From a virus: a DNA stretch of 23,519 bases. Positions 8,212 to 21,448 of this stretch are shown here, in pieces. The stretch's first letter is position 1. Each line of letters starts with the position of its first letter. Location: positions 1-23,519 of the IMG/VR virus record IMGVR_UViG_3300046007_001267. The stretch is one strand, 5' to 3'. A program made the position numbers and the translations under genes. The notes beneath the pieces were generated by a model, which saw only the letters and a program-made list of their open reading frames with translations, did no database searches and was not told the origin of the DNA.

Positions 8212-8520
8212 TTATACTTTTAGAATGCCGTTGTTCATTTCGTAGTTTTCTAGATCTGTTTGAGCAGTAACATAAGCCTTGCCTCTGTACGTAATTGCGT
8301 CATTTTCGAGTACTACACACTCAAAACTTTGCCCCTCGATGGTCTGAAAATCCGAAAATGTGATTATTAATTGAAAGTTTTGGTAAAAAACATTATCATA
8401 TTCAATCGAATAGGTAATATTTTTAAGTTCATCACGTAAATTTAACACAATTTCGCCACCATTATAGCTAGCTGGGATACATTTAAACGTGTGATTTGTT
8501 GCTACTGAAAAGACTATCAT
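8212..8520 (-). CDS. Small beta-rich protein before the portal, 102 aa
   Basis: It is predicted to be almost all beta, with strands such as GGEIVLNL, ITYSIEYDNVFY, FQLIITFSDF and GKAYVTAQT. It begins five bases after the AGTCTTA box of the third late motif and directly precedes the portal (2-nt gap). Position suggests a head-tail connector or virion component. No known family recognised. The first codons (MIVFSVATN) are hydrophobic but too short for a signal peptide. Confidence 0.65.
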   Translation of the reverse strand: MIVFSVATNHTFKCIPASYNGGEIVLNLRDELKNITYSIEYDNVFYQNFQLIITFSDFQTIEGQSFECVVLENDAITYRGKAYVTAQTDLENYEMNNGILKV

Positions 8521-8525
8521 ATTTA

Positions 8526-8549
8526 TAAGACTAAAATATATCGATTTGT
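8526..8549 (-). promoter_or_regulatory. Late motif copy 3: ACAAA-N12-AGTCTTA in front of the portal block
   Basis: On the minus strand ACAAA (8549-8545), then 12 AT-rich bases, then AGTCTTA (8532-8526), then TAAAT and the ATG at 8520-8518. Spacing is identical to the copies at 11319-11342 and 18701-18724. It begins only three bases after the T-tract of the terminator at 8553-8579, exactly where a new promoter would be needed. Proposed as a late promoter used by the phage sigma-like factor; the function is inference. Confidence 0.6.
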
Positions 8550-8552
8550 AAC

Positions 8553-8579
8553 AAAAAACCCATCAATTAAGATGGGTTT
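8553..8579 (-). terminator. Rho-independent terminator after the probable tail tube gene
   Basis: On the minus strand AAACCCATC pairs with GATGGGTTT around the 6-nt loop TTAATT, and the second arm runs into six T residues. It has a 9-bp perfect stem and a good T-tract in the direction of transcription. It ends the capsid/tube block; the portal block then restarts with late motif copy 3. Confidence 0.85.
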
Positions 8580-10221: not shown

Positions 10222-11313
10222 TTATTTTAATTGTTTTTTGATTTCTCTGTGTCGTTCCAAAGCTGTCATTGCCTCGAAAGGTTTTGCATCTTTAACTTCT
10301 GGTTTTGCTTTTGTGCTTGCGCTTAATTGAATTTCTTTTGCCTCTGAAATTTCCGCTTTCAATTCAACTTTAAGATCGTTCATTTGCTTAGCCACTTCGC
10401 TAGACAAATTCATTACGATTGTTTTGATTAACGCCTCAAATTTTCCATCGTTACTCATTTCCACTTCTTCAGCTTCCATTTCTTTAACTCTGATTTCAGC
10501 GATAATTCCCGCTTCTGTAATTATTAAGATGTTGCCATCTTCCAATTCGTGTTCGCCAACTGGAGCAGGAGTAGTCGTGCCATCTTCAGCTACGATGTTT
10601 ACTTCTTGACCAGCTTCAAAACTTGCCGCTTCTAAAACTGTAACTCCATCGCTAAGTTTCATTTGTGCCAATTTTACATCCACCACTTCGGGTGCTGGGT
10701 TATCGCTCGATAATTTTATCGCAGCAAACCCCTCTTTAATTGCATTTGCAATCGCTTCTAGATTCATATAGTTAGTATTTAAATTAATTTTCTCTAATCC
10801 GAATTTTGTACCATCGATTGAAAAGCCTTTCACTTTTCCAGTTTTTATATAGTCATTCCAAACCTCGTCATTGTTTATTTTCTGCATCCCGTACAAAGTT
10901 CCAATCGGGTGCTTAAATCCGTATAAAACCGACTTATCGTGTACGTCATCCTCCTTTATCCACGTTTCTGTAAAGGTTACATCTTCTATAAATTTCCCAT
11001 CGTGTTCGATAGTTGAATTGTTTTGAAATCCGTTTTTAATAAACTTTTCGTGGATTTCTTTTATTGTTTCTGCCTCGAACATAATGTTAAAAGGCTCCCC
11101 TCCATCGGGATCGTTTCTCATTATTAGTTGGTTTGGAATTAAAACCGCTCCAACTACTATCCTCTTTTCCTCGTTTACCGTTGCAAGTTGTATATCGGTT
11201 TGCTCTGCTGAAAGTGATATAAATAACTCCTTTGTGGCTGGATCATCCACTAAAGAAATTGCGTAAATTCCGCTTTCATCATTTTCGTTTAAAACCACTT
11301 TGTAAGTTTGCAT
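10222..11313 (-). CDS. XkdF-like prohead protease with C-terminal scaffold-like region, 363 aa
   Basis: The first about 175 residues match the XkdF/Peptidase_S78_2 type: SLVDDPATKELF (20-31), VGAVLIPNQLIMR (54-66), a likely catalytic His104 in TIEHDG and a likely Ser165 in KGFSIDG. Such serine proteases cut scaffold and capsid ends during prohead maturation. The rest is acidic and contains a short beta unit (TTPAPVGEHELEDGNIL) and a helical Lys/Glu-rich tail (about 290-363), as in scaffolding proteins, so protease and scaffold may be one polypeptide. It is the first gene after late motif copy 2; the ATG lies five bases from AGTCTTA. The major capsid gene is 19 nt downstream. Catalytic residues are inferred from position and motif. 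Confidence 0.75.
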   Translation of the reverse strand: MQTYKVVLNENDESGIYAISLVDDPATKELFISLSAEQTDIQLATVNEEKRIVVGAVLIPNQLIMRNDPDGGEPFNIMFEAETIKEIHEKFIKNGFQNNSTIEHDGKFIEDVTFTETWIKEDDVHDKSVLYGFKHPIGTLYGMQKINNDEVWNDYIKTGKVKGFSIDGTKFGLEKINLNTNYMNLEAIANAIKEGFAAIKLSSDNPAPEVVDVKLAQMKLSDGVTVLEAASFEAGQEVNIVAEDGTTTPAPVGEHELEDGNILIITEAGIIAEIRVKEMEAEEVEMSNDGKFEALIKTIVMNLSSEVAKQMNDLKVELKAEISEAKEIQLSASTKAKPEVKDAKPFEAMTALERHREIKKQLK

Positions 11314-11318
11314 ATCTT

Positions 11319-11342
11319 TAAGACTGAATTTAATTATTTTGT
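11319..11342 (-). promoter_or_regulatory. Late motif copy 2: ACAAA-N12-AGTCTTA in front of the capsid block
   Basis: On the minus strand ACAAA (11342-11338), 12 AT-rich bases, AGTCTTA (11325-11319), then AAGAT and the ATG at 11313-11311. It fills most of the 38-nt gap after the tape measure gene. Same geometry as the other two copies, while the 12-nt spacer sequence differs; the boxes, not the spacer, are conserved. Confidence 0.6.
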
Positions 11343-13483: not shown

Positions 13484-15872
13484 TTTGTAATACTGGTATT
13501 GAAATTTGTATTGATGATGCGCCTTTAAAGTAGTCTAATAATACATTGTCAGTTCGATTAACGCCAGTTGTATTTGCTGGAACTGAAACATTTAAAAGTC
13601 CATCTTTGTAAACGTTGCCACCGCTTGAATAAGTTCCCCCTAGAAAACCAGCTGCGGCTTTTGATTCCCAAAAATCGTTATCATTTAAAAATACTTGCAC
13701 CTCTATTTCTTGCGCTGTATTGTCTATAACTAAATTTTGAATGTTTGTATTACGAAGCCCTAAATTTACATCGCTAAACTGTCTAAAATCGCTTAACAAT
13801 TCAAAGGTTGTTTCCTTTGTCGTTAAATCAACGGTCATCGTGTTAATCGTATATCGTTTATTTTTTAAAATAATTCTATCGTATAACTGAATGCTATTTA
13901 CAATTAAAGTATTTAGCATCGCTTTTACCGTTACTTTTCGAGTTCTAATATTGTACAGATTTTCCACATATTTTGAATAATAAGTAGTAAATAAACCCTT
14001 TGGCGGTGCTAGGTCAGTATTTACCACTCCAAACTCATCGCCAAAATTTAAAGAGTATAAATAGGCTTGATCGGTTGCTCCTATTGATATTTCATTTGTA
14101 AATAACCTATAATTAGGTAAATTAAAAAGTGTGCCGCCAAAGTCGTATTTAATTGGTGTATTTACTCCATCTATTAATAAAGGAACTCGGCTATTTAAGT
14201 ACATCAATACTGGTTTAGGAGTATAAGGTTGTTGGTCTTTATTCCATAGCGTAGCAGTTACAAAATTTGTTACAGTCGTTCCGCTTGTAATTGGTGGAAT
14301 GTAACGCTCGTAAAGTATATCCTCAAATGGTAATTTTACATCGTAAACTTCAGTACTTGTAATATTTTCGTTTGTGTAATTTAAATCTCCATATTCTCGG
14401 TTGAACAATCCACGAAAAGCATTATTAAGTATGTTTTCTGACTTTTCATAAGCAAATTTAATTGACTTAAATATTTTCGGTTTACTAATTTGTTCTTGAT
14501 CTGTACCGCAATATTCTGTTAAATCTAAAATTGTACCACGCTCAAAATAAACATCCATTGTAACAAACTCAAAAGATGTTTCGCTTAATGGAATAATCAT
14601 TAAATTGTGCGCTTTCATAATTCCTATTATAAAAGCTTCTATTGTAATGTCTGGAACGTAATTTTGTATGTTTAATTTTGTTGTTGTTGTTTGTGCGCTT
14701 GAACTACCAAACATATCTGTAAAAGCAGTAAGAGGAGGTATATTGTAATTTCTTTTATACTGAATAGTTGACGTAAAAGTCATCGGTAAATTTGATACTA
14801 TTTTAAAAGAAAATTTATGTAAAGGATATTCTCCATTTACTTTAGCTTCATCTACTCGTAATTTTGAGAAATAACATTGGTCAGTATTTCCAAAAAGATT
14901 TTCATAGGTTAAGTAAAGAATATCATTATCATAAATTTCAACTGTGTATTGAATACTAGAGTCTGTCGGAAATATTTTAATCCAAGATTCAAGTCTAACA
15001 TTGGCAAAAGGATTTGCTGGTGGTAAATCATTAAATCTAAAAATTAATTCATCAGTCGTCAAGTCTAAATAACCCCTTGTAGTGTTGTTAAAGTCAGAAT
15101 CTCTTGAGGTAAAATTAATTTTTAAAGGTTCTGTTTTAGCAGTAAACTTTTCCGCATTTTTTAAATATAACCATAGTTTTTTAAACAATATACTTTCTAA
15201 AAATACACCGCTAAAAGTAAGGTTATATCTTGTTTGAATAAAATTAAATATTTTGTAAACTGGAATAGCAGGAAATAAATCTCTTGCATCAATAGTTCCT
15301 GCTGTTGTTGTAATATCTGAACCGCTGCCAGTTCCACACTCAAAACGCCTATCACTTCCAATTAAAGGGAATGCAAGGTTTTCAGAAATACCTACAACTC
15401 CGTTTAAAATAATACTAACATTTGCTTGAGTGTAATTAAAGTTTAATTGACTATAATCTAAACTATTTAACTTGTCATCTTTGAAACTGTCTTTTAGTTG
15501 CGTTAAATTGCCTGTAAAATTGATAGTATAGCTTTCAATCATATTATCTTTTTTGTCGGCTTTCTCTAACTGAAATTTGCCAAACCGAAAAGGTATATCG
15601 TCAATCTCTATTCTACCAAAGTATTTTTTTCTTTGGTCAAAACCATCACTAACTGAATTTTCATACCAATGCGAAAAGATTTTATTATTAACCGCACTCG
15701 CTGGTACTGTAAACGATTTGGAGTAGTCTGTAAATATTTTTCCTAAATCGTTGAAATTCTGAATTGATGATGTGATAGTAATTGTTTCATCAGCAAATAA
15801 TTCTATTCGTCTTGAAATTGGCGTGAGTACATCGTCAATTAATTCATCGATATAAATGTAAATTCCTACCAT
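13476..15872 (-). CDS. Large tail-tip / baseplate hub-like protein, 798 aa
   Basis: It is beta-rich throughout. The N-terminal region (about 24-130) contains ELFADETITITSSIQNFND, FTVPASAVNNKIFSHWYEN, and later PFRFGKFQLEKADKK followed by YTINFTGNLTQLKDSF. I recognise this region as characteristic of a large tail protein in Bacteroidota siphophages. By size and place (beside the tape measure, downstream of another tail protein) it is the best candidate for the tail-tip hub that binds the tape measure end. No lysozyme or peptidase motif is visible. The start overlaps the previous stop as TAATG at 15872. Confidence 0.65.
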   Translation of the reverse strand: MVGIYIYIDELIDDVLTPISRRIELFADETITITSSIQNFNDLGKIFTDYSKSFTVPASAVNNKIFSHWYENSVSDGFDQRKKYFGRIEIDDIPFRFGKFQLEKADKKDNMIESYTINFTGNLTQLKDSFKDDKLNSLDYSQLNFNYTQANVSIILNGVVGISENLAFPLIGSDRRFECGTGSGSDITTTAGTIDARDLFPAIPVYKIFNFIQTRYNLTFSGVFLESILFKKLWLYLKNAEKFTAKTEPLKINFTSRDSDFNNTTRGYLDLTTDELIFRFNDLPPANPFANVRLESWIKIFPTDSSIQYTVEIYDNDILYLTYENLFGNTDQCYFSKLRVDEAKVNGEYPLHKFSFKIVSNLPMTFTSTIQYKRNYNIPPLTAFTDMFGSSSAQTTTTKLNIQNYVPDITIEAFIIGIMKAHNLMIIPLSETSFEFVTMDVYFERGTILDLTEYCGTDQEQISKPKIFKSIKFAYEKSENILNNAFRGLFNREYGDLNYTNENITSTEVYDVKLPFEDILYERYIPPITSGTTVTNFVTATLWNKDQQPYTPKPVLMYLNSRVPLLIDGVNTPIKYDFGGTLFNLPNYRLFTNEISIGATDQAYLYSLNFGDEFGVVNTDLAPPKGLFTTYYSKYVENLYNIRTRKVTVKAMLNTLIVNSIQLYDRIILKNKRYTINTMTVDLTTKETTFELLSDFRQFSDVNLGLRNTNIQNLVIDNTAQEIEVQVFLNDNDFWESKAAAGFLGGTYSSGGNVYKDGLLNVSVPANTTGVNRTDNVLLDYFKGASSIQISIPVLQNA

Positions 15873-17953: not shown

Positions 17954-18695
17954 TTCTGTTGTGTTTGTTTTATTCTACGTGCTTCCTCTTTGCTCTCATC
18001 AATTAGGTAAGATAATAACGTGAGTGATTCAAAAAGAGGTTCTTTTCCAACGTCTGAAATTCTAATTTTAAGTTCTCGGCTAATTGTGATAAAGGATTGA
18101 TACCATCCCCAGCGTTCGGTAAAACTTCCGCCAAATTCAGCTTCTCCCTCGCTGCCATCTTGGGAATAGAGCAAAGGGTGTGATTCAATAATTCGCTGAA
18201 TAAACTCCAAAAAAAAACCATTGCACCCCTAACTATGTGCATCGGTGTATCGTTGAAATTTAACGCTAAAGATTCATCTCCAGTAAACTCTTCAATCTCG
18301 TAAAACTCTCCCGCTTTTCTTTTGATAGGTCTGTACATTACTGAAAGCATCAACTCGGTTAATTCATCTTTGCCCATACACGTATCAATCGTTGCGTGTT
18401 CTCCTAAACTAATCCGTTCCATATTAGGAATAAATCCGTAGTTAACGCCATTCATTTTAAATGTTCTTGTAAGTGCAGGAGATTGGTCGAGTGTTTGCGC
18501 TATTGTTTTTACTATATCGGCAAACTCCAAGGCTGGAAGTTTCATCACATCGCTAACTTCTATATTGCAAAAGATAGCCACCATCTGAATACAAATGTAC
18601 GTTTCATCATCTGCATTGTCGGCTACTACTTTTTGGTAACGCTTGTATTGTGATAGCGTTATTTCTTTTAAATCTGTTGGAATTATTACTCTCAT
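17950..18695 (-). CDS. Frameshifted tail assembly chaperone (G-T-like), 248 aa via -1 shift
   Basis: Translation starts at ATG 18695, runs 162 codons in frame 0 to the T9 run (18209-18217), and would then slip back one base. It continues in the -1 frame as LEFIQRIIESH... for 86 codons to the stop at 17950. The -1 extension carries GSFTERWGWYQSFITISREL, followed by a helix FESLTLLSYLIDESKEEARR, a layout I associate with chaperone C-terminal parts in this tail position. Its stop overlaps the next gene by ATGA, as expected for the main reading frame. Lambda-type tail assembly chaperones are made as a short and a long form by such a shift. Transcriptional slippage adding one T would give the same product. 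Coordinates span both frames. Confidence 0.65.
18003..18695 (-). CDS. Tail assembly chaperone-like protein, zero-frame product, 230 aa
   Basis: Without a shift the gene ends at 18003 after 230 residues. Residues 1-162 are shared with the long form: an N-terminal ITLSQYKRYQKVV, a helix-rich middle, and an RPIKRKAGEFYEIEEF segment. Residues 163-230 are encoded in the same DNA as the -1 frame and read plausibly (...AGDGINPLSQLAENLKLEF...), so the 18003-18210 stretch may be dual-coding. The ATG is five bases from AGTCTTA of late motif copy 1. In siphophages such a protein helps polymerise the tube around the tape measure. The identity is inferred from gene position and the frameshift. Confidence 0.65.
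   Translation of the reverse strand: MRVIIPTDLKEITLSQYKRYQKVVADNADDETYICIQMVAIFCNIEVSDVMKLPALEFADIVKTIAQTLDQSPALTRTFKMNGVNYGFIPNMERISLGEHATIDTCMGKDELTELMLSVMYRPIKRKAGEFYEIEEFTGDESLALNFNDTPMHIVRGAMVFFWSLFSELLNHTLCSIPKMAAREKLNLAEVLPNAGDGINPLSQLAENLKLEFQTLEKNLFLNHSRYYLT
18209..18217 (-). promoter_or_regulatory. T9 slippery run, programmed -1 frameshift site
   Basis: On the minus strand the codons are GTT TTT TTT TGG. The heptamer T TTT TTT is a perfect X XXY YYZ slip site in the zero frame. A one-base backward slip continues as TTG GAG TTT ATT into the 86-codon -1 frame. No strong downstream stem was seen by eye. RNA polymerase slippage on nine T residues is an equally possible mechanism. Confidence 0.65.
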
Positions 18696-18700
18696 ACTTA

Positions 18701-18724
18701 TAAGACTAAAAAATATTGTTTTGT
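18701..18724 (-). promoter_or_regulatory. Late motif copy 1: ACAAA-N12-AGTCTTA in front of the tail block
   Basis: On the minus strand ACAAA (18724-18720), 12 AT-rich bases, AGTCTTA (18707-18701), then TAAGT and the ATG at 18695-18693. The motif begins at the base directly after the terminase stop codon (18725-18727), so it and the N5 make up the whole intergenic space. Same spacing as the copies at 11319 and 8526. Confidence 0.6.
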
Positions 18725-19888
18725 TTATGTAATTATTACTTTTCGTGTTGGCTTGATTGCAAGTTGCATCATTGCGAAGTATCGAAGCGCATCGATAGCG
18801 TGGTTCATTGAATCAATCGGCTTGTTTAATTTTTTGCCAGTCTTGTCAACATCCCAGCTATACGCTCGGAGTTCTTTGATAAGGTTCACGCTTGACTTTG
18901 TGATTAACATTTGCTTTTGTTGCAGGACTGAAATACCAAAATTAATCGAGTCGGCACCCTTTACAACCGGTTTGATATTATATCCTGCTCTGCGTATTTC
19001 CTCAATACTTTTCGGCTCTGCACTATCTGCCCAAATCGGGAGGCGTTTATCGTGGCTCATTAAGTTGATAATATCGGAATTCAAAAGTGAGGTGCTATAA
19101 ATAACCTCGTTGCAAATTATTTTACCATCGTATTCGTGAACTTCAATAAGTGCGCTTGGATCGTTGCTATATCCAAAATCTAACCCGTAACCGATTAACT
19201 TTGCCTCTGCTGGTATTGTATCGATTAATTCGTAATTCTCGAATATAACGCCCTCCAGCGTTCCGAGTTGGCCTAATCCGTAAACCTTATACCAATTATC
19301 CCAATATGATGAAGTTAACGCCTTTTGCTTTGCTTTGTTTATGAAGTTCAAAGCGGATTCCGGGCAGGCTTCATTATCCAAATAGTTAACGATTATAAAA
19401 TCCACATCACTATCATTTTGGAGTTCAGTATGGAACCAAAATTCATTTGTTGGATTCCAGTCTAAATAAACTCCTAATTTTGTTCGTGAGGCGAGTTCGG
19501 TGTATGCGTGAAATACCATATTGTTCGCTTCATTCATATACAAATAATCACGCCTCGCACCTCTCAACTTTGCATCGTTATCCGCAGAGAAGAACTCTAT
19601 TTGTGATCCGTTGGCAAACGTGTATTTGAAATCGGTTGCGTTCCATCTATTGTCAAACCATCGCCCCGTTTCTTTCATTATCTTTTTAAAATCTTTCATC
19701 GCCCCACGTTTGAGATGTGGTATTGATTCAGCCACTACGCTAATTTCGGTTAACTCGGTTTTGGTTGCGATATTAATTAAAATAGGAAGCACTCCAAAGG
19801 TTTTCCCCGCTGAAGTGCCTCCTTGTATTCCTTTGACAAATTTTGTCAAATTAAGTATTTTATTTATTACTGTGGTTCGAATAAACAT
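18725..19888 (-). CDS. terL: Terminase large subunit, 387 aa
   Basis: This is the ATP-driven DNA packaging motor and headful nuclease. The ATPase has a Walker A variant GGTSAGKT (23-30), Walker B and catalytic Glu in YLYMNE (about 115-120), and a coupling region NPTNE (145-149). The RNase H-like nuclease has its acidic residues at D237 (LDFGYSNDP), D288 (WADSAEP) and D359 (IDSMNHAIDALRYF), the Terminase_3 layout. I chose ATG 19888 (TGATG overlap with the small subunit stop) over a TTG one codon upstream. It is on the short side for the family, but all motifs are present. Packaging strategy (cos or pac) is not visible. The tail block starts right behind it with its own motif. Confidence 0.92.
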   Translation of the reverse strand: MFIRTTVINKILNLTKFVKGIQGGTSAGKTFGVLPILINIATKTELTEISVVAESIPHLKRGAMKDFKKIMKETGRWFDNRWNATDFKYTFANGSQIEFFSADNDAKLRGARRDYLYMNEANNMVFHAYTELASRTKLGVYLDWNPTNEFWFHTELQNDSDVDFIIVNYLDNEACPESALNFINKAKQKALTSSYWDNWYKVYGLGQLGTLEGVIFENYELIDTIPAEAKLIGYGLDFGYSNDPSALIEVHEYDGKIICNEVIYSTSLLNSDIINLMSHDKRLPIWADSAEPKSIEEIRRAGYNIKPVVKGADSINFGISVLQQKQMLITKSSVNLIKELRAYSWDVDKTGKKLNKPIDSMNHAIDALRYFAMMQLAIKPTRKVIIT

Positions 19889-20292
19889 CAATCCGGAAAT
19901 AGTGGTTGCTCTGCAATTATAGTATTTTGAACCTGCTCTGTTAGTCCGTTTAATCGTTGCGTTATGCTCGGATTGTACACTCCAGCCATACCGCCCTCGA
20001 TTTGATCTTTACGTGTGTGTTTTTTGATATATGAACAGATGGGTGCATAATCGGAGTATCTGTTATCTTTATTCTTTAAATAATCTCCCAAATCTTCTAT
20101 AATATCATTATCTGCTAACCAACATTCAAACCCCTCAATAGTTAGAGGTCGTTCCTTTTCTTTGTACACTTCTAAAGCATCTTTTCCTACCCAATCTTTA
20201 ACTATAAAAGGATTGTTTTTAGTTTCCTTTTGATAGCAATGGAAGTACTCTTTTAGCTTTTCGGGTGTTTCTATGTATTTAGTTCTCCCCAT
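19888..20292 (-). CDS. terS: Terminase small subunit, gp3-package type, 134 aa
   Basis: The fold pattern, an N-terminal helix (TPEKLKEYFHCYQKET), an extended KERPLTIEGFECWLADND segment (47-64) and a helical ICSYIKKHTRKDQ, resembles the DNA-packaging gp3 family (P22-type small terminase), which recognises the packaging start site and stimulates the large subunit. The C-terminus ends in an acidic/hydrophobic tail (IIAEQPLFPD). It overlaps the gene before it by 14 nt and joins the large subunit by TGATG. The adjacent large subunit makes the assignment safe. Confidence 0.8.
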   Translation of the reverse strand: MGRTKYIETPEKLKEYFHCYQKETKNNPFIVKDWVGKDALEVYKEKERPLTIEGFECWLADNDIIEDLGDYLKNKDNRYSDYAPICSYIKKHTRKDQIEGGMAGVYNPSITQRLNGLTEQVQNTIIAEQPLFPD

Positions 20293-20575
20293 CGTTAAAC
20301 AATTTATTCAAATCTTTTACCATTATCGCCATAACCTTTTCGCTTTTGGTGTTGGTGTTATCCAATCCGAAGTATTTTAAGTATAAAGCTGGGATATTAG
20401 GATTATCACTATTAAACGCTTCGCAGTCTTTACAATCGATTTTACAAATTGGCTTTTTATGTGTCCATTTATCCATTGTGAATTGTCTGTCCTCACATTT
20501 GGCACATTGCTTAATTCCGACTGCCTCTGTGATCTCTTTTACTATTGTTCCGAGTTTTGGTTTTTTACTACGCAT
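20279..20575 (-). CDS. Small Cys-motif protein before the terminase, 98 aa
   Basis: Cysteines at 24, 27, 44, 48 and 51 (QCAKC; CKIDCKDC) could bind zinc. The remainder is helical and charged, with LYLKYFG at 64-70 and a C-terminal MVKDLNKLFNDG. It overlaps the sigma-like gene by 34 nt and the small terminase by 14 nt, so it belongs to the same transcript. The GIKQCAKC stretch resembles a short Cys motif seen in small phage proteins near terminases. Function unknown. Confidence 0.6.
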   Translation of the reverse strand: MRSKKPKLGTIVKEITEAVGIKQCAKCEDRQFTMDKWTHKKPICKIDCKDCEAFNSDNPNIPALYLKYFGLDNTNTKSEKVMAIMVKDLNKLFNDGEN

Positions 20576-20979
20576 ATTAATTTCTCTTTTACCATTTTAT
20601 TAATTCTGTGAACTGTTTGAATGTGTATGCCTGTTTGCCTTGAGAATGGTCGTTGCCCCTCTAATGTTGAGCAAACAAACATTGTTTTTTCGTACCACGT
20701 TAACCGCTTTGAAATTTCATCAAACTCTGGCAGCGTAACGTATTCATCATCAATAATCTCAAACCTTGTAAAGTCATCAATTAGTATTTCTTTTGTCTTT
20801 AAACTATCGTAAAACAAGTTTCGTAAGATTGTGTAAATGTACGAATTATTTATATTCTTGAACGTGTGCGCTTTTAAGTACATCTCCTGCACGATATCGT
20901 CAGCAAGGTCTTTGTCTTTCGTAATCTTGAAAGCCATCAATCGCCAGTCGCTATCTTTTTGTGCAAGTTGTTCAATCAC
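20542..20979 (-). CDS. Sigma-70/ECF-like RNA polymerase sigma factor, 145 aa
   Basis: Region 2 is at about 11-61: DWRLMAFKITKDKDLADDIV QEMYLKAHTF, with the helix NSYIYTILRNLFYDSLK that in ECF factors contacts the -10 element and core polymerase. Region 4 is at about 89-135 with a helix-turn-helix PFSRQTGIHIQTVHRINKMV. No sigma-1 or sigma-3 domain is present. It starts with GTG at 20979, inside a GTGA junction with the RHH-like gene. It should redirect host RNA polymerase to phage promoters; the three ACAAA-N12-AGTCTTA motifs in front of the virion blocks are candidate targets (inference). It lies on the transcript from the host-type promoter at 21418-21448. A diverged sigma-like protein with another role cannot be excluded. 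Confidence 0.7.
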   Translation of the reverse strand: MIEQLAQKDSDWRLMAFKITKDKDLADDIVQEMYLKAHTFKNINNSYIYTILRNLFYDSLKTKEILIDDFTRFEIIDDEYVTLPEFDEISKRLTWYEKTMFVCSTLEGQRPFSRQTGIHIQTVHRINKMVKEKLICVVKNQNSEQ

Positions 20980-21164
20980 ATATCAAATGTATTTAATTTT
21001 TCTTTAAGTTGTTCTTTTACGAGTATTTTTATTTCATTTACTAAAGATAAAGGCACCCTAAAGGCGATTGTTGTTGTCGGCTCGTTATACTTCGGCTTTG
21101 CTCCTTGATTACGATTAGAACCGCCCCTGTTATCGGAGCGGTTGGGTTTTAGTAGTTGTGCCAT
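20976..21164 (-). CDS. Ribbon-helix-helix-like DNA-binding protein, 62 aa
   Basis: A disordered basic N-terminus rich in Asn, Arg and Gly (1-28) is followed by a strand TTTIAFRVP (30-38) and an amphipathic helix (about 39-58, LVNEIKILVKEQLKEKL), the layout of MetJ/Arc-type repressors. Only one helix of the usual two is clear, so this is a reduced or partial RHH. The stop codon overlaps the sigma-like GTG start (GTGA), so the two proteins are probably made together, and it may regulate the same transcript. A short inverted repeat lies inside its coding sequence (21119-21143). Confidence 0.5.
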   Translation of the reverse strand: MAQLLKPNRSDNRGGSNRNQGAKPKYNEPTTTIAFRVPLSLVNEIKILVKEQLKEKLNTFDM

Positions 21165-21165
21165 T

Positions 21166-21384
21166 TTAATTATGAATTTTAAATATTGGCGCCATTGAAT
21201 ATTTACCTAATAAATAAACATATTCTTCTCCATTCCATACGTTTACTTTTTTACGTACAATTTCATTATTAACTACTGCAATAACAAAATTTCCTTTGCG
21301 CTCAATTACTTTAGCAAACCATACGCAGTTTGAATCACAAATTGAAGTAGCTTTTAATACGGTGTTTTTTTGAATAGTTGTCAT
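21166..21384 (-). CDS. First gene behind the host-type promoter, 72 aa, unknown
   Basis: It is beta-rich (VWFAKVIERKGNFVIAVVNN; EEYVYLLGKYSMAPIFK) with two Cys at 16 and 20. It is the first open frame after the promoter at 21418-21448, with a leader of about 25-30 nt ending AAACATTATGA. Its stop is followed one base later by the stretch before the RHH-like start. The strand-rich fold and place suggest a small regulatory or anti-host protein, but nothing shows this. Family not recognised. Confidence 0.6.
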   Translation of the reverse strand: MTTIQKNTVLKATSICDSNCVWFAKVIERKGNFVIAVVNNEIVRKKVNVWNGEEYVYLLGKYSMAPIFKIHN

Positions 21385-21417
21385 AATGTTTGTTTTTTAA
21401 TTGTTGTTATCTGAGTA

Positions 21418-21448
21418 CAAATATACAACCTTATTTTGATTATGCAAA
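21418..21448 (-). promoter_or_regulatory. Canonical Bacteroidota promoter, TTTG-N19-TATATTTG
   Basis: On the minus strand TTTG at 21448-21445, then 19 bases, then TATATTTG at 21425-21418. This matches the -33/-7 consensus TTTG and TAnnTTTG used by the primary Bacteroidota sigma factor. The start would lie near 21411, 25-30 nt before the ATG at 21384. It should be read by host RNA polymerase early in infection and drives the regulatory and terminase genes. Confidence 0.8.

Follow-up and report, generated by a model that had tools for sequence, protein, structure and literature searches.

The window analysed here, the whole stretch of DNA studied, is a complete viral record in IMG/VR (23,519 bases). 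It encodes a short ECF-type sigma factor between host-type promoters and the terminase genes, and the same bipartite promoter-like element stands immediately before each of the three genes that open its virion blocks. We propose, with a probability of roughly 0.8, that the phage sigma factor is made by the host transcription machinery and would direct the host core polymerase to these three predicted late promoters. What we observed directly is the family of the protein and the promoter-like element, with the place it takes, its conservation and its coherence within genomes. The evidence described below is comparative and drawn from sequence; it confirms the earlier observation and largely supports the way in which it was read.

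Gene content of the window

The recognised genes of the window are all on the − strand. The predicted terminase, portal, tape-measure and CHAP-lysin genes mark the virus as a tailed phage, and the host-type boxes (TTTG / TAnnTTTG) together with the nearest cultured relatives, P12024L and P12024S, point to a Bacteroidetes host. The genes from the sigma region to the portal are as follows.

21166–21384, − strand: 72-aa gene (ORF), the first after the host-type promoter at 21448–21418
20976–21164, − strand: 62-aa small gene, RHH-like pattern by eye; weak match to a PHROG of unknown function
20542–20979, − strand: 145-aa ECF-type sigma factor, GTG start; regions 2 and 4
20279–20575, − strand: 98-aa four-cysteine protein between sigma and terminase (ORF)
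19888–20292, − strand: terminase small subunit (PF16677, GP3_package, E = 4e-8; phrog_606)
18725–19891, − strand: terminase large subunit (PF17288, E = 8e-15)
18003–18695, − strand: 230-aa gene, head of virion block 1, followed by tail and tape-measure genes (ORF, orthologues)
10222–11313, − strand: 363-aa gene, head of virion block 2 (weak head-maturation-protease match)
10202–9183, − strand: probable capsid gene, after the 363-aa gene
8212–8520, − strand: 102-aa gene, head of virion block 3 (ORF, orthologues)
8209–6470, − strand: portal, after the 102-aa gene

Along 19891–6470 (− strand) the order is terminase, tail and tape measure, protease and capsid, and portal, with the portal apart from the terminase; the usual order in siphophages is terminase-portal-capsid.

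The first-pass annotation had read the upstream end as a small gene, an RHH-like gene and the 145-aa gene, with the terminase next. The three reading frames stand. The RHH-like label was not supported by Pfam, where the 62-aa protein gave no match, and it is a guess. The terminase does follow, with the 98-aa gene, which had been left unmentioned, in between. In P12024L, gp37 occupies the position matching that of the 98-aa protein, looks similar to it on visual comparison and is preceded by a sigma-type promoter of its own. The 98-aa protein, with its four cysteines, could be a zinc co-factor.

Assignment of the 145-aa protein to the ECF sigma factors

The earlier reading of sigma regions 2 and 4 in the 145-aa protein was borne out. 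Region 2 was recognised by Pfam (Sigma70_r2, PF04542, above cut-off, E = 4e-6), and region 4 was confirmed at the family level; the Pfam region 4 models match some family members only. We took 60 loci with relatives from viral contigs, and in the resulting family alignment (A1, 30 members) we observed a near-invariant DDIVQEMY block, corresponding to region 2.2, and a C-terminal helix-turn-helix. Sigma70_r2 was matched by 23 of the 30 members at E ≤ 0.01 and the NCBIfam ECF models by 28, the window protein itself being below the cut-offs of the named families.

Profile searches had been named as the check on which the sigma identity could fall, and both profile and fold searches placed the protein inside the ECF sigmas. 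In the PDB, the family profile had sigma factors as its only matches, and these spanned both domains (Bartonella RpoE, 6e-8; SigW, 7e-7; also mycobacterial SigE and SigH), and it aligned with 5uxx and SigW across positions 13–151 of 156. An AlphaFold2 model has two helical domains joined by a loose linker, with C-terminal helices (pLDDT 78); its pTM is low (0.42), so only the domains and not their packing are reliable. In Foldseek, ECF sigmas ranked first, including ones in transcription-initiation complexes. A length of 145 aa accommodates two domains only, without region 1.1 or region 3, as in the ECF factors (group 4). A cognate anti-sigma nearby is usual, not universal, for ECF sigmas; among the Pfam and PHROG matches of the neighbouring genes no anti-sigma was recognised. 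A scan of genome contigs returned mostly chromosomal ECF sigmas from other phyla and no clear prophage members of the family. From these sequence and model comparisons we conclude that the 145-aa protein is an ECF-type sigma factor in a phage family of its own.

A bipartite element heads the virion blocks

The element ACAAA-N12-AGTCTTA has three exact copies in the window, all on the − strand, against 0.02 expected, and no more than one was found in any of 100 shuffles. Each of them stops 5 nt short of an ATG (at 18695, 11313 and 8520) with which a virion block begins.

18701–18724, − strand: predicted sigma-dependent promoter 1, ACAAAACAATATTTTTTAGTCTTA, upstream of the 230-aa gene, the first after the terminase
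11319–11342, − strand: predicted sigma-dependent promoter 2, ACAAAATAATTAAATTCAGTCTTA, upstream of the 363-aa gene before the probable capsid gene
8526–8549, − strand: predicted sigma-dependent promoter 3, ACAAATCGATATATTTTAGTCTTA, upstream of the 102-aa gene before the portal
8556–8579, − strand: terminator-like hairpin directly upstream of predicted promoter 3

AGTCTTA alone, allowing one mismatch, is not enriched in the window (65 found, 81.5 expected), so the enrichment concerns only the pair at its fixed spacing. ECF promoters have an AAC-type −35 and a CGT-type −10 box, and the core of the element, AAC-N15-[AC]GT, resembles them in both (AAC at −35, [AC]GT at −10). In F. psychrophilum, a CGT −10 box has been named as the sigma-ECF signature (PMC9723704).

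The boxes change together across relatives

In the near relatives both boxes are fixed and the 12-nt spacer is variable. Profile-iterated searches yielded head-gene orthologues in ~20 genomes, with sigmas down to ~25% identity; nearly all of these genomes carry the element at the three orthologous head genes, and their capsid and portal genes, which lie inside the blocks, have no element. The −10 box is AGTCTTA, AGTTATA or AGTTAAA in the window clade and CGTTATA, AGTTATA or CGTTAAA in other clades. Further clades have TTGTTTTTAAATAA (G019), TAATTTTTAAAATAA (G011, G012), TTATTATTATAAA (G025), TATTGTAT (G015) or CTATAAT (G030), mostly with ACAA[AT] 12 nt upstream. AAC-N15-[AC]GT precedes the head genes in the window and in most clades, the −10 boxes of G011, G019 and G025 being A/T-rich and less clearly ECF-like.

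We compared the likeness of boxes at non-homologous genes within a genome with that obtained by permutation and found 42.6 against 36.6 (sd 1.07, p ≤ 5e-5); control genes in the same test gave p = 0.64. A trans-acting factor would be expected to leave boxes that are coherent within a genome and differ between genomes; simple descent would not. The claim of the first-pass annotation that the ACAAA/AGTCTTA motif heads the virion blocks was confirmed in the window and extended by the joint change of the boxes among relatives.

The presence of a dyad was tested with a fixed ACAAW anchor, which had been chosen after the window boxes were seen, any spacing from 5 to 25, any 8-mer and 200 shuffles. 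It was significant in 12 of 15 sigma-bearing genomes (0–1 of 200 shuffles) and in none of the five sigma-less terminase relatives, which are few, partly fragmentary and inter-related; this control set is small because nearly all relatives carry the sigma, found by profile in 30 of 33 terminase relatives. In G016 the sigma is present and no element was detected. The expected genes of G021 and G022 do carry AGTTATA/CGTTATA boxes, but both genomes fail the ACAAW-anchored test; no clear ACAAW was seen at the right spacing in either. Searching each genome de novo for motifs by EM (width 28) proved insensitive owing to the few sites and the long free spacer, and the anchored dyad test was used instead.

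We also scanned 2.9 million viral contigs with the exact pattern ACAAA-N12-AGTCTTA-N3-[AG]TATG. This gave 57 matches in stretches new to the analysis, some of them from already known contigs. In 43 of them the gene downstream is homologous to one of the three head genes, in 5 more it is a 154-aa gene from this kind of phage or a cut copy that can still be recognised, and 9 look like chance. Two 33-kb contigs (G037 and G046) were located by the scan alone, and both encode a distant member of the sigma family. In G010, the tandem 109- and 121-aa genes at 13532 and 13906 (L178/L179) have identical 45-nt upstream stretches with ACAAAATTAAGTTTATTTAGTTTAA; the pair is a promoter–gene unit that has been duplicated.

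Five changes, the minimum possible, suffice to place the six box types on the sigma tree. The terminase and 230-aa trees need five as well, and therefore the mapping alone fails to single out sigma. When the A/T-rich types were grouped coarsely as one clade, the AU test rejected the grouping for terminase (p = 0.004) and not for sigma (p = 0.41); we treat this contrast as weak because the grouping was made after the data had been seen. We did not read the fine box variation as covariation with sigma, because the AGTCTTA versus AGTTATA variation in the window clade does not track sigma identity.

The cultured Nonlabens phages P12024L and P12024S (Inhavirus) share with the window the gene order nuclease, sigma, terminase and virion genes. 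In P12024L the sigma is gp35, which is listed as hypothetical with the remark 'containing Sigma-70 region 2'; its gene stands between a VRR-NUC gene and the terminase, as in the window, and its product is ~37% identical to the window sigma over half of the protein; the P12024S sigma is 98.7% identical to that of P12024L. P12024L has six ACAAA-N(12-15)-CGTTAW elements (0.34 expected; never six in 100 shuffles), which precede gp05, gp08, gp37, gp42, gp45 and gp46, and a seventh, looser element precedes gp01. These elements are like AAAACAAA-N13/14-CGTTAA, with a −10 box CGTTAATA and a spacer of 13–14, whereas the window has N12-AGTCTTA.

Host-type promoters ahead of the sigma gene

Two host-type signals precede the sigma gene, as would suit the early role first suggested for it.

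21418–21448, − strand: host-type (Bacteroidetes sigma-A) promoter TTTG-N19-TATATTTG, a pattern match
20984–20991, − strand: host-type −7 box TACATTTG, ending 4 nt upstream of the sigma GTG and recurring in relatives

Predictions of E. coli-type Sigma-70 promoters for the window were set aside, because Bacteroidetes promoters use boxes other than those of the E. coli sigma-70 type. The Bacteroidetes sigma-A consensus is TTTG / TAnnTTTG (PMC6847099). The promoter at 21448–21418 had been noticed before as the only one of its kind; the promoter stands and its uniqueness does not, since matches to a loose host-type pattern number 8 in the window, where 3.1 would be expected, and the box at 20991–20984 comes in addition.

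The upstream promoter is part of a conserved unit, TATATTTGTACTCAGATAACAACAA (window 21425–21401, − strand), with −33/−7 spacing, for which we found 111 distinct sites in other viral contigs. It precedes many unrelated small genes, with the ATG mostly 28–30 nt downstream of the −7 box, and it recurs nearly unchanged at L086 (2800–2818) and at loci from L261 on. The conservation of this sequence past the promoter and into the transcript start suggests a common early-gene leader with a role of its own.

The TACATTTG box has the same spacing to the sigma start in L004, L018, L039, L046, L056, G016 and G030. Its significance comes from this recurrence and not from rarity in the window, where it has one match against 1.55 expected. 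A −7 box ending between −30 and +25 of the start was found at 14 of 31 sigma genes, not all of them independent, against 27 of 526 other genes (~5%), and near the sigma start it is often at exactly −4. Of the promoters ahead of the sigma gene, the one nearest in its control is probably the −7 box at 20991–20984, which heads the gene most directly. In F. johnsoniae, transcription starts 4–5 nt after TAHHTTTG (PMC6847099), and by analogy the sigma mRNA itself may be leaderless. In many window-clade relatives the TACATTTG-type box and the sigma start are separated by an inserted small gene, which differs from relative to relative (L002, L012, L020, L033 and others, 180–260 nt before sigma); the junction looks like a site at which accessory genes enter.

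In some relatives sigma-type boxes are also found on the early side. In G029 (L198) and L035 a sigma-type promoter upstream of sigma overlaps the host TATATTTG box (ACAAA..CGTTATATTTG), and in G021 (L190/L191) a CGTTATA box stands before the gene preceding sigma; small genes just upstream of sigma are preceded by such boxes in all three. These arrangements suggest positive autoregulation of sigma in G029, L035 and G021, and the overlapping boxes of G029 and L035 are a possible switch from host to phage control. In the window no sigma-type box was seen before the sigma gene.

Proposed cascade and alternative explanations

In the cascade that we propose, host polymerase with its primary sigma would transcribe the phage sigma and terminase genes together from the TAHHTTTG-type promoters ahead of sigma, at 21448–21418 and/or 20991–20984. 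The phage sigma would then join the host core polymerase and direct it to (A)ACAAA-N12-AGTCTTA at 18724–18701, 11342–11319 and 8549–8526, the predicted promoters that head the tail, head/capsid and portal blocks. Core binding, direct recognition of the boxes, the temporal order and the leaderless start are what we infer from the observed arrangement. In phiEco32 and 7-11, transcription starts 6–9 bp from the box (PMC8948821), and this distance, if applied here, places the starts on the ATG. Late transcription would thus begin at the ATG or within ~2 nt, and the late mRNAs would be leaderless or nearly so, a notable departure given that only 5.5% of mRNAs are leaderless in F. psychrophilum (PMC9723704). 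Somewhat short of an even chance, in our estimate, is the wider possibility that the family forms a panel of at least six sigma/promoter specificities on a Bacteroidetes core, with starts on the start codon, leaderless virion mRNAs and, in several clades, a leaderless sigma mRNA made from a host promoter, all within a phylum in which only a small share of mRNAs is leaderless.

We weighed this cascade against three other explanations. A host ECF sigma might recognise the boxes while the phage protein does something else, e.g. competes for core polymerase. Flavobacteria do have several ECF sigmas and a CGT-box promoter class (PMC9723704). However, the boxes shift jointly at three unlinked genes within each phage genome, several box types occur among phages with similar terminases, and the boxes were not detected in the five sigma-less relatives; we consider this explanation quite improbable. 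Nor do we find it easy to explain the conserved upstream sequence by shared ancestry alone, without trans-acting recognition. The loci are orthologous in related phages, and the box types can be placed on the terminase and 230-aa trees no less well than on the sigma tree, but non-homologous loci in one genome share boxes unlike those of the orthologous locus elsewhere, and the spacers vary while the boxes are fixed. To this explanation we give hardly any credence.

The element might also serve as an operator on which another phage regulator acts, e.g. the 62-aa RHH-like protein, or it might be an upstream activator site or a signal for translation. In favour of these roles are its place immediately 5′ of the ATG and the small, possibly DNA-binding protein encoded beside sigma. 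Against them, the two boxes are non-palindromic, have ECF-like content, are held at a fixed 12-nt spacing around a variable spacer and are found at block heads only, and the 62-aa gene is not a constant neighbour, relatives having other genes before sigma. These roles appear very unlikely to us, and we favour the recognition of the element by the phage sigma.

Comparison with known systems

To our knowledge, little has been learned of how Bacteroidetes phages programme their transcription, and P12024L/S offer a cultured system in which the proposed cascade is directly testable. The factor/promoter pairs could show how residues of regions 2 and 4 set the choice of boxes, and they could serve as orthogonal expression tools in Bacteroidetes. 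As far as we know, Shine-Dalgarno sequences are not used in these bacteria, and the predicted leaderless late mRNAs bear on how translation is initiated in them.

In phages of Gram-positive bacteria, late regulators of the RinA/ArpU/LtrC type are encoded by a small gene just before the terminase and control late genes. As far as we know these regulators lack a core-binding sigma region 2, whereas region 2 is the best conserved part of the window sigma family. Host ECF sigmas (Bacteroidetes TIGR02985 and NF058625; B. subtilis SigW) are alike in having regions 2 and 4 only, and their AAC −35/CGT −10 promoters resemble those predicted in the window and most clades; the window sigma differs in being short (145 aa), in having no adjacent anti-sigma recognised and in lying in a phage operon with the terminase.

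The first-pass annotation had regarded the combination as new. This is so only in part, as phage-encoded sigmas that drive late genes are established in phiEco32 and 7-11 (PMC8948821, PMC4331800). We found no description of a phage-encoded late sigma for Bacteroidetes phages in the open-licence literature searched, and what appears to be new from the sequences is a lineage in Bacteroidetes phages in which several sigma/promoter types have diverged jointly and the late mRNAs are predicted to be leaderless.

By its published description, phiEco32 gp36 is likewise a phage sigma that acts on the host core and turns on middle and late genes, with starts 6–8 bp downstream of the box, but its promoter is a single element, tAATGTAtA, that lacks a −35 box, and it works with a phage co-factor, gp79, in an E. 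coli podovirus (PMC8948821). The window, from a Bacteroidetes phage, has the two-box ACAAA-N12-AGTCTTA, and no co-factor was identified. In Salmonella phage 7-11, again as published, the late sigma gp47 acts with the host core in vitro on bipartite late promoters, GTAAtg-(16)-aCTA, and the early promoters of that phage use host sigma-70 (PMC8948821). Phage 7-11 differs from the window in its boxes, its virus group and its E. coli-type host promoters. What the window family has in common with both systems is the presence of phage-specific promoter elements upstream of virion genes.
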